Assembly: GCA_019117305.1 (NCBI GenBank)
Contig: DWZZ01000128.1
Span: 1-42,683, forward strand
Length of the DNA: 42,683 nt
Direction of reading: 5' to 3'
Source of the DNA: Candidatus Mediterraneibacter merdigallinarum
Lineage (GTDB): Bacteria > Bacillota > Clostridia > Lachnospirales > Lachnospiraceae
This document shows positions 33,768-38,824 of the stretch, piece after piece; within the stretch, counting starts at the first letter, position 1, and every line of letters begins with the position of its first letter. Below the pieces are notes generated by a model. That model was not told the origin of the DNA and ran no database searches. It saw nothing but the letters and a program-made list of their open reading frames with translations. Made by a program: the position numbers and the translations under genes.

Positions 33768-34388
33768 CTAAAAAGCCACGTACCATTTTAGTCCCGACTT
33801 AAATACAGTAAGCTCAGTATCATTACTTTCTCCCATAAAGCTGACCTTCAGTTCAAGATTTTTTGCCGCATCCACCTTAATGCCGTCTCCCCCTATATCC
33901 TGATACGATTCTTCCAGGTCTGCCACATCTGAAGCGCTCAGATTTTCTACATCCGTTATTTCATAATCAATGTTTATGCTGCCAAAGCTGCCCAGGCCGC
34001 CAAACATTGACTGTATCTGATCTGCGGCCTCTGCCCTGCTGATTCCTTCTTCCTCCAGCATTGCGTCGAGCATATCCGGGTGAATCGCTGAAAGAAGTTT
34101 GTCTCCGTCCTGTTTTTCAACTCCCTGGATAAGTGCCCTGACCGGTCTGTCATAACTGGTTATTCTGACAAAAAAGAAAATCCCTATACCTACCGCTGCT
34201 GCCGCAAGTACTCCGATCACAATAAATATCCATGCTTTGCTTCCTGATTTTTTCGGAGCCGGCCCGGGATTTTCAATAGGCGGCCTGTTCACTGTCCGTC
34301 CGTCTGCAGCGTCTGTGGCTCTTGCTCCGCAAAATGTACAAAAACTATCTCCTTCAAAAATCGGTTTCCTGCAATTTCTGCAAAACAT
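33768..34388 (-). CDS. Zinc-ribbon membrane protein with an outer domain
   Basis: A 206-residue protein with an N-terminal zinc ribbon (C3, C6, C17, C20 in FCRNCRK and FCTFCGA), a Pro-rich linker, one membrane helix (about 50-73) and an outer domain of about 130 residues. The outer part resembles the DUF4878/NTF2-like lipoprotein fold (RALIQGVEKQDGDKLLSAIH, then strands ending in ELTVFKSGLKWYVAF), but that is a weak guess. The zinc ribbon is predicted inside the cell, so the protein could relay information across the membrane. It is the last gene of the kinase/phosphatase operon, 17 bases after the small zinc-ribbon gene. Confidence 0.82.
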   Translation of the reverse strand: MFCRNCRKPIFEGDSFCTFCGARATDAADGRTVNRPPIENPGPAPKKSGSKAWIFIVIGVLAAAAVGIGIFFFVRITSYDRPVRALIQGVEKQDGDKLLSAIHPDMLDAMLEEEGISRAEAADQIQSMFGGLGSFGSINIDYEITDVENLSASDVADLEESYQDIGGDGIKVDAAKNLELKVSFMGESNDTELTVFKSGLKWYVAF

Positions 34389-34405
34389 CTTCTTTCCTCC
34401 CCCTA

Positions 34406-34759
34406 TTACAGATCACCCGGTGTATCAAAATATTCTTTGAACTCCGGCGTTTCTTTTTTAGTATTGATTACCAGCTTTGGCGATTCCGACTCCGGTGCAG
34501 ACTTAGGCACCAGATTTTCCGTTTCAGGTTCTGTTCCCGGAATCTTCTCTGTCGGATACGCCGGCCCGGTCTTCTTCACTATTGTTTCCGTCCTCCTTAC
34601 GGGATCATCTGCCGGATTCACCGCCGGCACTCTCCCCGTCGCCCTCAGCCATGCCTGCTCATCCTCGTCTGTCCACGGTCTTACTTTTGTTCCGCACGCC
34701 GCACAGTAGACTCCGCCTTCCTCTATCCTGCATCCGCATTTTCCGCAAAATCTCTGCAT
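34406..34759 (-). CDS. Small zinc-ribbon protein with a conserved C-terminal tail
   Basis: A 117-residue cytosolic protein. The N-terminus is a zinc ribbon (C5, C8, C19, C22 in FCGKCGC and YCAACGT); the rest is a Pro/Glu/Thr-rich region that looks disordered. The last residues, EFKEYFDTPGDL, match the tail of the kinase two genes upstream, TFEQYFQTPGNL, and both proteins also have a KL[VI]I segment further in (KLVINT here). This suggests a common binding partner or phosphorylation site. The start was set at MQRFCGKCG because AAGGAGGAG lies before that ATG; a longer frame starts ten codons earlier. It is 33 bases downstream of the vWA gene. Confidence 0.82.
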   Translation of the reverse strand: MQRFCGKCGCRIEEGGVYCAACGTKVRPWTDEDEQAWLRATGRVPAVNPADDPVRRTETIVKKTGPAYPTEKIPGTEPETENLVPKSAPESESPKLVINTKKETPEFKEYFDTPGDL

Positions 34760-34792
34760 ATTCCACTCCTCCTTCAAGACATTTCCCATTCA

Positions 34793-35479
34793 CTAAAAGC
34801 TGTTGCATATTGCGTCTACAATCTCACGGTATGTATATTCTTCCAGGCCTTTGCCGGCTGTAGACGGATAATGAATCACATTGTTCCATGTATTTGTAAT
34901 CTGCTCCCAGTACGGCTTCTGAGGAGCGAAAAGTACCAGACGCTTTCCGGAATTGGAGATAAACGTCTCAGTCTGCTCGTCACCCCACCAGCTTGTAAGC
35001 TCCGCAAAGGACTGGGGCATTCCCTTCGGATAGTTGGACGCTGTCTTTCCAAATCCGATTTCATGGGTTGAAGCGTCCGTCCACACAACAATGACATTCC
35101 TTCTTTTTGTTCCTTCTTTGCTCCAGTCTGATTTTATGGCATATGCAAGCGCTTCCAAAGCGTCTTCCGGCTCATCTCCGCCGCCTTTTGCACTGATACT
35201 CTTTATACAGGTTTCAAACTCTCTTGCCTGAGCGGGAAGGTCAAAGAAATTGGTTGCAAACATTGCTCTGTCCCCGTCTGCCAGATAGTCCCTAAAAGCA
35301 ATCACACGGATCCGCAGCCGGTCAATACTTTTTTGTTTCTCATTCATAACTTTGGTCACATCATCATAAAAATTAAGCGCATTCTGCTTCACTGTTTCAA
35401 GGACAGGAGACATGCTTCCCGTCGCATCGATACAGAATACCATATCTACATTGTACTTCATTGTCATAAAATCCGTCAT
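34793..35479 (-). CDS. von Willebrand factor type A domain protein (TerY-like)
   Basis: A 228-residue protein that consists of one vWA domain. The metal-binding MIDAS motif DxSxS appears as CIDATGSMSPVLETVKQNAL (near 15-34), with the Thr at the NFFDLPAQ region and Asp in VVWTDASTHEIG. KGGGDEPEDALEALAYAI is typical of the TerY type. In TerY-P systems a vWA protein occurs with a PP2C phosphatase and a protein kinase, as here. The start was set at the second ATG, eight bases after GGAGG; the first ATG lies only two bases from it. No signal peptide is visible, so it acts in the cytosol, probably as an adaptor. Confidence 0.9.
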   Translation of the reverse strand: MTDFMTMKYNVDMVFCIDATGSMSPVLETVKQNALNFYDDVTKVMNEKQKSIDRLRIRVIAFRDYLADGDRAMFATNFFDLPAQAREFETCIKSISAKGGGDEPEDALEALAYAIKSDWSKEGTKRRNVIVVWTDASTHEIGFGKTASNYPKGMPQSFAELTSWWGDEQTETFISNSGKRLVLFAPQKPYWEQITNTWNNVIHYPSTAGKGLEEYTYREIVDAICNSF

Positions 35480-35511
35480 TTTCATTTCCTCCTCTGTCTT
35501 AACTGTACTTT

Positions 35512-36684
35512 TTATAAATTACCGGGCGTCTGAAAATATTGCTCAAAGGTGCTTTTTGGTTTTTTCCCATTTTCTGTGCCGCTTACGCTCCCTGCGTTCT
35601 CCGTTTCCTTCAAATCCTTCCTGTCCTCCGGTCTGAGTCCTATGGTAATAATCAGTTTTGAGTGCCGCCTTGGTCCGTCTGTCGGTTTTTCTTTTCCCGG
35701 TAAAATATCTCTGTTATTTTCTATACCCGGATTTTCCGTACTCCCGGGTACCGGCTTCTTTTCGGGTGTTTCTGGTTTCTTTACAGGTTTAGCCGGCTTC
35801 TCCGGCGGTTTCACTACCGTTTTCTTCACCGGATTCTTTTCAAAATAACGCCACCAGGCGTCTTCCAGTTTTATCCTCTTTTTCGGATCACTCTCCAGCA
35901 TGGATACCAGCAGTTCCTGCAGTTCCTCCGGAACTGATCTGTCACAGTACAAGTCCTCCCCATTCAGAAGAGCTTCAAAGGGGTAGGAATACTTATTTGC
36001 GTCAAATCCCACTCTTTTCCCCGTCAGAATCTGATGAAATACAAGCCCCAGAGCGAACACATCCATTGCAGAATCCGGTTTTCCTTTTTCTTCCGCAATA
36101 ATCCGGAACACTTCCGGTGCTATATACCAATAGTCTCCGTGAATTTCCTCCACATCTGCCGGAGGCTCACTCTCACGGAAACAAGTGTCAAAATCAATCA
36201 GTTTGGCCGTTATCGCCCCGGAATCAAGTCTTTTATACAGTATATTCTCCGCTTTTATATCGCTGTGGACAATTCCCGCTCTGTGAAGCTGCAGAACCGT
36301 ATGCAGAAGCACCCGGCAGAGCCGCACTTTTACAGTTACGGGCTGCTCATAAACCACAGCCTCGTCTACAGCTTCTATCTGTTCTGTTGTAATATAGTAC
36401 TTACTTCCGTATCGAAAAAACTGTTCTATCCGTACAAGATTTCCGTCAGAGCAATTATTTATATCGGAATACAGCTTTTTCATTTTTTCTTCATATTTTC
36501 TGCATCCCGCCTTTTTCCGCTCTACCTGTTCTTTCGTCAGAAGTTCTGTATATACGGGATATACAGGCGACAGAAACTCTTTGATAAAATAGCGGCGTCC
36601 GTTTTTCCTTGCGAATCCCCATTTTGAAAATCCGCTGTTATCGGCAGTCAGACTGCCTTCCAGCTCATATTCATTGATTTTCAT
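35512..36684 (-). CDS. Serine/threonine protein kinase with a C-terminal tail motif
   Basis: A 390-residue cytosolic kinase. Visible motifs: the Lys of FIKEF (K35), catalytic loop GIVHSDIKAENILY (H140, D142, K144, N147), metal loop LIDFDTC (D164, DFD in place of DFG) and APE (189-191). The Gly-rich loop is poor, as in some bacterial atypical kinases, but the catalytic Lys and Asp residues are in place, so activity is likely. The kinase domain ends near 305; the tail (306-390) is Pro/Lys-rich and ends in TFEQYFQTPGNL, shared with the zinc-ribbon protein encoded at 34406-34759. There is no membrane segment. It overlaps the phosphatase gene by four bases, so the two are coupled. Confidence 0.9.
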   Translation of the reverse strand: MKINEYELEGSLTADNSGFSKWGFARKNGRRYFIKEFLSPVYPVYTELLTKEQVERKKAGCRKYEEKMKKLYSDINNCSDGNLVRIEQFFRYGSKYYITTEQIEAVDEAVVYEQPVTVKVRLCRVLLHTVLQLHRAGIVHSDIKAENILYKRLDSGAITAKLIDFDTCFRESEPPADVEEIHGDYWYIAPEVFRIIAEEKGKPDSAMDVFALGLVFHQILTGKRVGFDANKYSYPFEALLNGEDLYCDRSVPEELQELLVSMLESDPKKRIKLEDAWWRYFEKNPVKKTVVKPPEKPAKPVKKPETPEKKPVPGSTENPGIENNRDILPGKEKPTDGPRRHSKLIITIGLRPEDRKDLKETENAGSVSGTENGKKPKSTFEQYFQTPGNL

Positions 36685-37646
36685 GTCTCATCCCTCTTCT
36701 GATATATTTCATAATCCGGGCGGTAAACTGCCCACTGGCGGAAAAGTTCCTGTTCGGACGTATCCGGAAGAAGCGGATACACACGTTCCATATACCGGTA
36801 TCTTTTTTCACAGGATTCTTTCAGTTTCCTGAAACTGCCATACCCCACGCTCATCAGGCTCATGGTATAGTCGTCTCCCGCGATATTCCTAAACTGTTCG
36901 TCCAGCGCGTTCTGCCACTGCACAATACTCTCGCTTGACAGAAGGGTGCTCAGCAGCAGCTTTTCAAACTCCATAGGAGTTCTCAGATAGCCAAAACATC
37001 CGTCTGTCGCCGCAAATATGATACATGGCTGATCCAGTTTTAACTTTCTTACGTTGATCTGATACGGGTGGGAAGCCGATACCACATTGTTCATCCCGGC
37101 ATCCTGCCTCAGATTTTCCATTGCGTCTGTTACCGGAAGATCATCCACCGACACCTGTTTCAGTCCCTGTTCGTCCAGTACATATACTCTGGAATCGCCG
37201 CTCCACAGAAAGTCTGCCAGCAGTCCTTTCCCGCCGGGCTGCACTATTGCCGCGGCCAGAGTAGACGGGAATTCTTTTGTCATGCTTCCTTTCAGCATGG
37301 TTCCTGTCCCGCTTTTCTGCTTCAGGCCGGCAAGCCTGGCATCAATCGCGTTTTTCAGTGTGGCGCCGGAAATCCTGTATATCTGCTCTTTTTCATCCCA
37401 GCTGCTGTCAAACCAGCTGCCGGTCACCTCTGAGAGTACTCTGGAGGCAATAAATGCCCCGGTTTTTTCGCCGAACATCTTATATATTTTTGCTCCGCTT
37501 CCTCCGCATCCGTCAAATACCCCTGCAAGTCCTGCCCTTTCATTGACAGAAATCAGAAAGCTGTCTTCACCTTTCTGCTCAATTTTCTCTCCGTGGACCA
37601 CAAAAAACTGATCAATTATTTCTAAGAAATTATTTTTTTTCTGCAT
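36681..37646 (-). CDS. PP2C-family protein phosphatase
   Basis: A 321-residue metal-dependent Ser/Thr phosphatase without membrane segments. Motifs in order are the acid in KGEDSFLIS, GVFDGCGGSGAKIY, the ADFLWSGDSRVYVLDEQGL core strands, IIFAATDGCFGY and GDDYTMSLM; these supply the metal-binding Asp residues. It is the natural opponent of the kinase with which it overlaps by four bases (ATGA). The start was set at MQKKNNFLEII, which follows GGAG; the longest frame begins 23 codons earlier inside a region that would otherwise overlap the upstream gene. GVFDGCGG has Cys where most PP2C have His or Met. Confidence 0.9.
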   Translation of the reverse strand: MQKKNNFLEIIDQFFVVHGEKIEQKGEDSFLISVNERAGLAGVFDGCGGSGAKIYKMFGEKTGAFIASRVLSEVTGSWFDSSWDEKEQIYRISGATLKNAIDARLAGLKQKSGTGTMLKGSMTKEFPSTLAAAIVQPGGKGLLADFLWSGDSRVYVLDEQGLKQVSVDDLPVTDAMENLRQDAGMNNVVSASHPYQINVRKLKLDQPCIIFAATDGCFGYLRTPMEFEKLLLSTLLSSESIVQWQNALDEQFRNIAGDDYTMSLMSVGYGSFRKLKESCEKRYRYMERVYPLLPDTSEQELFRQWAVYRPDYEIYQKRDET

Positions 37647-37669
37647 CCTGATAATCTCCGCTTTCCTTC

Positions 37670-38347
37670 TTATATCTGGTCCGAACTGCCGTCGTTCTGA
37701 CCGTCTCCCGGCCATGAATCCAGAGAATCCTCACGGGACGGATCAGCAGTATCATCTGTATTTTCGTCAGAACCGTTTCCTTCATTCAGGCTGCCATCCT
37801 GCTCAGAATCACTGCTTTGATCCTGCTCACCGTCCTGCTCATTTCCACCGTCCCAGTTCTGCTGGCTTTCCTGGTCTTCCAGTTCCTGCTGCCTTTTTTC
37901 TTCTTCCTCCTGACGGAGTCTTTCCGCTTCTTCCTGCTCGTCTTTCTCTGTCTGCTCTTCCCAGGCGGATCTGTAATCCTGTACAGACTGTTCCGTACTG
38001 TTCAGTCTGAGATTCAGCCGGATACAGGACAGGAGCAGCACAATGTTTATTATAATTACAATAAAGAAGCATACAAACATTTTTCTCCGGAAAGATCTGC
38101 TGCGTTTCTGCTCTTCCCGAACGGAATGAAACAGCATATTCCACTCCTGTTCCGGGAACATGCAGCTCTGGATAATCCGACTTTCCGGTCCGTCCGTTCC
38201 ATTCCCGCTTTCTCCATAAGGGATCTGAGCCGTGTACATTTCATCATTGAATCTTTCCATCTGTACCATACTGTCCTGCTGTTTCCCGCATTTTCTGCAT
38301 ACAGTCTCTCCGGGTTTCAGCCGGCTTCCGCAATACTTGCATATCAT
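37670..38347 (-). CDS. Zinc-ribbon membrane protein with an acidic tail
   Basis: A 225-residue protein: N-terminal zinc ribbon (C3, C6, C17, C20 in ICKYCGS and VCRKCGK), a linker, one membrane helix (about 88-110), a short coiled-coil-like stretch rich in Glu/Gln/Lys (about 125-160) and a very acidic Asp/Glu/Ser/Asn tail to the end. The N-terminus is predicted inside and the tail outside. No named family is recognised beyond the zinc ribbon. It lies between the RanBP2-finger gene (18 bases upstream) and the phosphatase gene, and by position belongs to the same operon. Confidence 0.8.
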   Translation of the reverse strand: MICKYCGSRLKPGETVCRKCGKQQDSMVQMERFNDEMYTAQIPYGESGNGTDGPESRIIQSCMFPEQEWNMLFHSVREEQKRSRSFRRKMFVCFFIVIIINIVLLLSCIRLNLRLNSTEQSVQDYRSAWEEQTEKDEQEEAERLRQEEEEKRQQELEDQESQQNWDGGNEQDGEQDQSSDSEQDGSLNEGNGSDENTDDTADPSREDSLDSWPGDGQNDGSSDQI

Positions 38348-38365
38348 TCCTCATTCCTCCTGTAT

Positions 38366-38824
38366 CTATTTCTGTCTCTGTCTTTTCTTTCCACATACCT
38401 GACAGTATTCCTCCGACACCGGATTTTCCCCGTCACAGTATATGCAGCGCCAGATATCATGTCTGGCACTATATGAATAAACAATAACAGACTCCCATTT
38501 CTTTTCCTTTGTCCGCTCAGTTTTTTTCTTTGTCATTCCCCTGCCATATGACAGTTCTGCCGCCTTTTTCTTGCCGATCTCCCGCGACTCTTCTTCTGAT
38601 TCTTTTCTTTTTACATCCCTTTTCTCTTCTTCTTTTTCAATTTCCTTCTTTTTTTCAGCCTCAGACAGAACCCAGCTGTCTTCTTCCGGCTCTTCATAGC
38701 CGCCTCCGTCGTCTTTTTTTCTGACCGCCAGCCAAATCAGTACTGCCGCGGCAATAATTACAATCAGGACAACGATTATCGTTGTCATATCTGCTCCGCC
38801 GTATGTAGTTCCGCTATATCCCAT
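38366..38824 (-). CDS. Membrane-anchored protein with a RanBP2-type zinc finger
   Basis: A 152-residue protein: short outer N-terminus, membrane helix (13-34), a Lys/Glu-rich linker (55-115) that may form a long helix, and a C-terminal finger. The finger has W125, C127, C130, N134, C141 and C144, which fits the RanBP2/NZF spacing W-x-C-x2-C-x3-N-x6-C-x2-C exactly. In eukaryotes such fingers bind ubiquitin or single-stranded RNA; in bacteria their role is little known. It is the first gene of the kinase/phosphatase operon, preceded by a strong promoter and the site GGAGGG. The finger faces the cytosol, where the kinase and phosphatase act. Confidence 0.82.
   Translation of the reverse strand: MGYSGTTYGGADMTTIIVVLIVIIAAAVLIWLAVRKKDDGGGYEEPEEDSWVLSEAEKKKEIEKEEEKRDVKRKESEEESREIGKKKAAELSYGRGMTKKKTERTKEKKWESVIVYSYSARHDIWRCIYCDGENPVSEEYCQVCGKKRQRQK

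Follow-up and report, generated by a model that had tools for sequence, protein, structure and literature searches.

A C-terminal tag common to the kinase and non-homologous neighbours of TerY-P-like operons: a candidate docking peptide

Introduction

To our knowledge, how bacterial Ser/Thr kinases choose their partners is largely an open question. One setting in which the question arises is the TerY-P triad, reportedly treated by Anantharaman and colleagues in 2012. In excerpts of two accounts, the triad consists of a vWA protein, a PP2C phosphatase, and a Ser/Thr kinase (PMC11090510; PMC7699616), and in the excerpted text of the first of these a zinc ribbon is fused to the C-terminus of the kinase (PMC11090510). 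The nearest concept to the tag reported herein is the coupling of effector-associated domains (EADs) in bacterial conflict systems. In the excerpted text, these small domains are proposed to self-associate, and one such module recurs on a core component and on otherwise unrelated proteins encoded nearby, with copies in some cases at other sites of the genome (PMC7159879). The short linear motifs through which eukaryotic kinases and phosphatases dock are likewise short, lie off the catalytic site, and select partners (cf. PMC8786283).

The locus described here lies in a window of 42,683 nucleotides (the whole stretch of DNA analysed, contig DWZZ01000128.1 of Candidatus Mediterraneibacter merdigallinarum). 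As in TerY-P, stand-alone vWA, PP2C, and kinase genes adjoin one another and are accompanied by zinc ribbons; the locus differs in that its kinase has no CxxC, its zinc ribbons are separate genes, and a C-terminal tag is common to the kinase and its partners. The triad is TerY-P-like and as such already known, whereas no description of the tag was found, either in the literature searched by tag strings or in titles and abstract openings, in agreement with the sequence-only reading that first noticed it. Where an EAD is a small self-associating domain, the tag spans 7-10 residues, mostly follows a low-complexity linker, is accompanied by an upstream box, and is expected to be bound by a different partner; the EAD-like arrangement, in which a core component and the product of a neighbouring gene bear the same module, was found in 12 of the 15 loci with a tagged kinase. 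Compared with eukaryotic docking motifs, the tag is bacterial, mostly C-terminal, and common to the kinase itself and its partners.

The Operon and Its Shared Tail

Seven genes, all on the minus strand of the window, make up the run from 33768 to 38824, with the following features:

35512..36684, minus strand: Ser/Thr protein kinase with C-terminal tag (Pfam Pkinase 1.9e-26; HSDIK and DFD residues; end TFEQYFQTPGNL)
35515..35550, minus strand: kinase tail TFEQYFQTPGNL with tag YFQTPGNL (sequence)
35638..35661, minus strand: putative kinase upstream box SKLIITIG (position and resemblance to the [LIV][KR]xTMR / L[RK]ISS boxes)
34406..34759, minus strand: small soluble zinc-ribbon protein with C-terminal tag (two CxxC pairs; end EFKEYFDTPGDL)
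34409..34444, minus strand: zinc-ribbon tail EFKEYFDTPGDL with tag YFDTPGDL (sequence)
34460..34477, minus strand: putative zinc-ribbon upstream box KLVINT (pattern search)
34793..35485, minus strand: stand-alone vWA protein, candidate hub and tag reader (Pfam VWA_4 3.2e-11)
36681..37715, minus strand: PP2C-type phosphatase (Pfam PP2C_2 1.3e-7)
37670..38347, minus strand: N-terminal zinc ribbon and one hydrophobic helix, no tag
38366..38824, minus strand: hydrophobic helix and C-terminal zinc finger, no tag
33768..34388, minus strand: zinc ribbon, hydrophobic helix, and further domain, no tag

The full-length ORFs end in ...STFEQYFQTPGNL (35512-36684, minus strand) and ...PEFKEYFDTPGDL (34406-34789, minus strand); for the latter, the start at 34759 adopted by the sequence-only reading is preferred over the ORF start at 34789, as AAGGAGG lies just 5' of its ATG and the ortholog has an identical start. 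The small zinc-ribbon protein matches Zn_Ribbon_1 of Pfam under the curated cut-off, and the DxTxS and GGGD residues of the vWA protein are unchanged across eight aligned rows. No PADLOC model matches the window vWA protein or PP2C, and the models hit by the kinase were built for kinases of other systems, with mad6 scoring best (5.2e-27). A sequence search of the PDB at an E-value of 0.01 returned no relatives of the vWA protein or PP2C, and an AlphaFold2 model of the kinase built from a two-row alignment (mean pLDDT 34) was not used. The operon is flanked, both in the window and in Candidatus Mediterraneibacter avicola, by what we take to be an mfd-like gene on one side and a foldase-like lipoprotein gene on the other.

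That the kinase and the zinc-ribbon protein end alike is borne out, with QYFQTPGNL and EYFDTPGDL each at the exact C-terminus, and the KL[VI]I segments noticed alongside them are present in both proteins (SKLIITIG in the kinase, PKLVINT in the zinc ribbon). The pattern FxxYFxTPG has two matches in the window assembly (2.41 Mb, 88.76% complete), both of them the operon tails, and none in the reversed control. Across 397 family genomes, 18 have a match, the window genome two and 17 others one each; with 15 matches of the reversed control in the same genomes (raw matches, in a gene or not), the idea of a common Lachnospiraceae feature was rejected. Only 25 of the last 39 bases of the two window tails are identical, stop included, so a recent DNA duplication of the tail is not supported. 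The tail is kept in M. avicola (zinc ribbon EHYFNTPGDL, kinase DQFFQKTGDL), though its kinase is without the Thr-Pro. FxxYFxTPGxL, as initially proposed, is real in the window and is the local form of a broader motif, [W/F/Y]F-x-x-[A/P/T/G]-G-D-L.

Related Operons

Related vWA/PP2C/kinase operons, mostly from Clostridia, were gathered with the vWA protein as bait. Since matches were obtained in two of 58 genomes of the genus, the operon is sporadic there; the family, class, and order samples yielded 6/397, 11/311, and 2/392 (one partial), respectively, the window genome being included in each of these four counts. Samples centred on genomes already known to be positive gave matches in 4/21 and 4/16 genomes of two other families and in 1/8 and 1/1 genomes of two genera. 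A GTDB scan with the vWA protein recovered M. avicola, at 93% identity, and a Ruminococcus MAG whose genes are broken. Sixteen plasmid records match the vWA protein, two of them over most of its length (Herpetosiphon, Calothrix), as do two phage records, one being a faecal contig at 60%. In IMG/VR, no close relatives of the kinase and one distant relative of the vWA protein were detected. A human faecal record labelled Bacteriophage sp. (L062, MT836186.1) contains the triad together with an ORF that, by eye, is integrase-like; the record could represent bacterial DNA or a mobile element.

The Tag on Related Kinases

A strict tag was defined as the end F-x-x-[AGPT]-G-[DN]-L, and a looser rule was applied beside it. 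Fifteen of 21 unbroken kinases, the window kinase included, are tagged: nine by the strict rule (window QYFQTPGNL, M. avicola QFFQKTGDL, L076 DWFNSAGDL, L077 GWFSMAGDL, L079 NWFKPAGDL, L081 EWFSTGGDL, L082 NWFKMAGDL, L083 AWFHHAGDL, and L119 DWFKPAGDL), five by the loose rule (L050 FFFRAGEDDL, L051 KYFSVASDL, L075 DFFKKADEL, L078 KHFKKAEDIF, and L120 KHFMKADDLS), and one, L062 EKFKQAGSLF, scored loose by eye and missed by the written rule. Left out of the 21 were the frameshifted L043 kinase, whose end (KRLSELD) shows no tag, and L080, L085, and L086, whose stretches contain no kinase. The sequence-only reading had named two outcomes as fatal to it, orthologous operons in which the two tails are not conserved and a tail that is common in unrelated proteins. 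Neither was observed in that form, though six of the 21 kinases have no tag (L052, L053, L054, L060, L061, and L084). Together with L043, these show that triads occur without a tag. On the tree of vWA proteins, L054, L060, L061, and L084 group together and apart from the tagged set (97/96), on long branches that leave the grouping unsure. L052 and L053 lie closer to the tagged set than the other untagged loci and argue against a universal tag. A strictly C-terminal reading is not certain either, because five kinase or partner tags carry an extra last residue and an FtsW-type protein carries an internal copy.

Tagged Partner Proteins

A second tagged protein, non-homologous to the kinase and encoded on the same strand, occurs in 12 of the 15 tagged-kinase loci under the strict or loose rule. 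These partners are soluble zinc ribbons, membrane proteins, a TetR-like regulator, and a BspA-type leucine-rich-repeat protein. Strict partners comprise the zinc ribbons of the window and M. avicola, a zinc ribbon with helices in L077 (DWFTSAGDL), a zinc ribbon in L081 (GFFKTGGDL), one protein each in L079 (ERFKQAGDL), L082 (SRFTQAGDL), and L083 (EHFQQAGDL), and four in L119. Loose partners are the zinc ribbons of L075 (KFFSAPEDI) and L120 (GFLNKANDLD), two proteins in L119, and a second partner in both L079 (GFNSDREL) and L083 (DLMERAGDL); the weakest are those of L050 (EFFHTDTDDLA) and L051 (GLIRKAGDL, without Phe).

The richest locus, L119 (genome G1083), has seven tagged proteins in a single gene run, namely a TetR-like regulator (SSWFSVGNDL), the kinase, a BspA-type leucine-rich-repeat protein with a helix (DWFKSAGDL), and four proteins with hydrophobic helices (DKFKPAGDL, DRFKPAGDL, DRFNPAGDLQ, and DWFKSAGDL). 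The genes adjoining this run (L119:225-4453) are presumably those of a PP2C, a membrane Ser/Thr kinase, an RsgA-like GTPase, and an Rpe-like protein, as in a prpC-prkC type locus. Two tagged proteins match established families, LRR_5 (4.6e-66) and FTSW_RODA_SPOVE (4.5e-57) in Pfam, and differ from the BspA-type leucine-rich-repeat and FtsW/RodA families by their tag-ending tails. Three tagged-kinase loci have no partner: L076, L062, whose contig begins at the PP2C gene, and L078, where none was seen. The L076 genome (G826) carries the tag on an FtsW/RodA-type protein encoded on a different contig, both C-terminally (EFFTGGGDL) and as an internal FFRGGDL; in the stretch L123:3067-7232, the gene for this protein adjoins, by eye, two genes resembling penicillin-binding proteins.

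Controls and Co-variation

Across 24 loci, the gene runs hold 208 non-kinase ORFs with a length of 90 aa or more, of which 19 end in a loose and 11 in a strict tag, as against one loose and no strict among 94 non-operon ORFs of at least 100 aa at the same loci, and three loose and no strict among 452 antisense ORFs within the gene runs. At the DNA level, a search of 32 genomes for F-x-x-[AGPR]-G-D-[LF] with TRR (stop or TGG) directly after it gave 37 matches (reversed control, 6). Twenty-one of the 37 are in-frame ORF ends, of which 18 fall in triad gene runs and three lie off the operon in operon-positive genomes. Of those three, the FtsW/RodA protein of G826 is the one clear case of a tag outside the triad; the other two are doubtful, an ABC-transporter end in G121 being probably chance and a 59-aa ORF in G1050 being possibly a tagged regulator, or chance. 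The latter (L122:4244-4423) has an XRE-like start and the end CFRTAGDL. A further match (G1066:C44) lies at a contig edge where the frame is unreadable, with letters the same as the kinase end; of the remaining six in operon-positive genomes, five are not ORF ends and one (G1050:C72:20028) falls outside this frame count. The 16 operon-negative genomes account for nine matches, none of which is an in-frame ORF end. In IMG/VR, WFxxAGDL-stop gave four matches; phage-borne mimics of the tag were rejected, as 0/4 are in-frame ORF ends.

In the analysis of INDEPENDENCE and co-variation, 20 tagged non-kinase proteins minus their last 20 residues gave no match to the four kinases compared. Where the trimmed proteins resemble one another, they do so mostly along the zinc-ribbon stretch and as orthologs or neighbours, with one wider match (L077 and L083, 24% over 116 residues). 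Within 12 operons, the tags of kinase and partner are more similar (mean score 23.8) than in shuffled pairings (17.2), in a test made slightly circular by the choice of partners through the motif rule. No shuffle out of 20000 attained the observed score; with shuffling confined to two clades 44 out of 20000 did, and with M. avicola omitted one out of 20000.

An Upstream Box

The KL[VI]I segment probably represents a second box that lies 24-52 residues ahead of the end. Box patterns, picked after the tails had been viewed, were searched in 91,599 residues of same-strand ORFs. All six occurrences of [LIV][KR]xTMR belong to tagged proteins (two each in L075 and L119, one each in L079 and L120) and begin 26-42 residues before the C-terminus; both occurrences of L[RK]ISS likewise belong to tagged proteins (L081, L082). 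Of five occurrences of [SP]K[LV][IV][IVF], four belong to the window and M. avicola tagged proteins, and the fifth is in a zinc-finger protein of L051 that has no tag. Most tagged proteins have none of the three patterns. These are read as variants of one box, among which the window KL[VI]I is placed by position and resemblance, and the Thr/Ser of the box may be suited to phosphorylation as a putative phospho-acceptor.

Discussion

The tag ends the triad kinase and one to six further non-homologous proteins of the same gene run, it co-varies between them, and none of its matches in the 16 operon-negative genomes is an in-frame ORF end; the view of the tail as a recognition peptide is accordingly well supported, its Thr-Pro component apart. 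Judging from sequence, the tail probably serves a TerY-P-like phosphosignalling triad as a docking, or assembly, peptide by which sensors, adaptors, and the kinase are joined to a hub. The tails would sit in the cytoplasm, where the tag would be bound by one shared core subunit, for which the vWA protein is the likeliest candidate; sensors, adaptors, and kinase would thereby be brought together. The kinase would then modify its neighbours as well as itself, with the Thr/Ser of the upstream box as possible phosphorylation sites, PP2C would reverse the modification, and different sensors could join the same hub by gaining the tail. An extended form of this proposal, which may well hold or fail with equal chance, envisages a bacterial docking code: a bipartite cytoplasmic tail, made of a [LIV][KR]xTMR box and a C-terminal WFxxAGDL, could be acquired by any protein to join the hub of vWA protein, PP2C, and kinase. 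One kinase would then be wired to membrane sensors, leucine-rich-repeat proteins among them, as well as to zinc-ribbon adaptors, a TetR-like transcription factor, and an FtsW/RodA enzyme of the cell wall. A short tag marking the members of a kinase system would make sensors and targets predictable from sequence alone and could itself be tested with one peptide.

As to the reader of the tag, the vWA protein is tentatively favoured over PP2C, the kinase, and other readers, at somewhat less than even confidence, because it has no other evident task, its metal-site residues are kept, and a peptide-binding role has, in excerpted text, been proposed for vWA domains of other systems (PMC7159879). Its metal site could accept an acidic or free-carboxylate peptide, and holding tagged proteins together is a suggested role for the stand-alone vWA protein of TerY-P-like triads. 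Co-occurrence does not separate it from PP2C, as both adjoin all 15 tagged kinases alike. Were PP2C the reader, the tag would be a phosphatase docking motif marking proteins for dephosphorylation and the tagged proteins, an autophosphorylating kinase included, would be its substrates; this seems rather unlikely, given that the six untagged triads also have a PP2C and that no PP2C feature is linked to the tag. A head-to-tail arrangement, wherein the kinase domain binds the tag for auto-inhibition and substrate recruitment, would suit the presence of the tag in cis on the kinase and the plausibility of the tagged partners as substrates, and is considered distinctly unlikely.

Little credence is given to a C-terminal degron or a protease or chaperone handle that sets the stability of operon proteins: the mostly C-terminal position and hydrophobic last residue would fit, but the tag resides on the kinase and neighbours of one system, co-varies, and shows an internal copy and some trailing residues. 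The Thr-Pro of the tail, which had been put forward as a phosphorylation site of the kinase, occurs in the two window tails as well as the zinc-ribbon tail of M. avicola; the M. avicola kinase, however, has KT, no position of the tags is consistently Ser/Thr, and the window kinase is the only one of the 15 tagged kinases with TP, the other 14 having, for example, MAG, PAG, HAG, SAG, TGG, KTG, or VAS there. Contradicted by orthologs, the phosphosite was rejected as very improbable. Chance or low-complexity convergence, for which one might cite the low-complexity linkers ahead of the tails and the few loose matches among background and antisense ORFs, is scarcely credible in view of the recurrence across genera and families, the absence of strict tags from both control sets, and the lack of in-frame ends in the 16 operon-negative genomes; it is contradicted for the strict tag, and single loose cases could still be chance.

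The docking reading aside, a few minor features of these loci were noted. At L051:3627-6944 in G121, the genes that come after the triad read by eye as those of another kinase, another PP2C, and an FHA-looking protein, and an FHA-looking protein also comes after the L050 triad. A YGRG[MF] motif is common to untagged helix and zinc-finger proteins of the window (38366-38824), L041 (9942-10394), and L050 (1014-1415), and a similar FGRGI is found in the M. avicola kinase tail.
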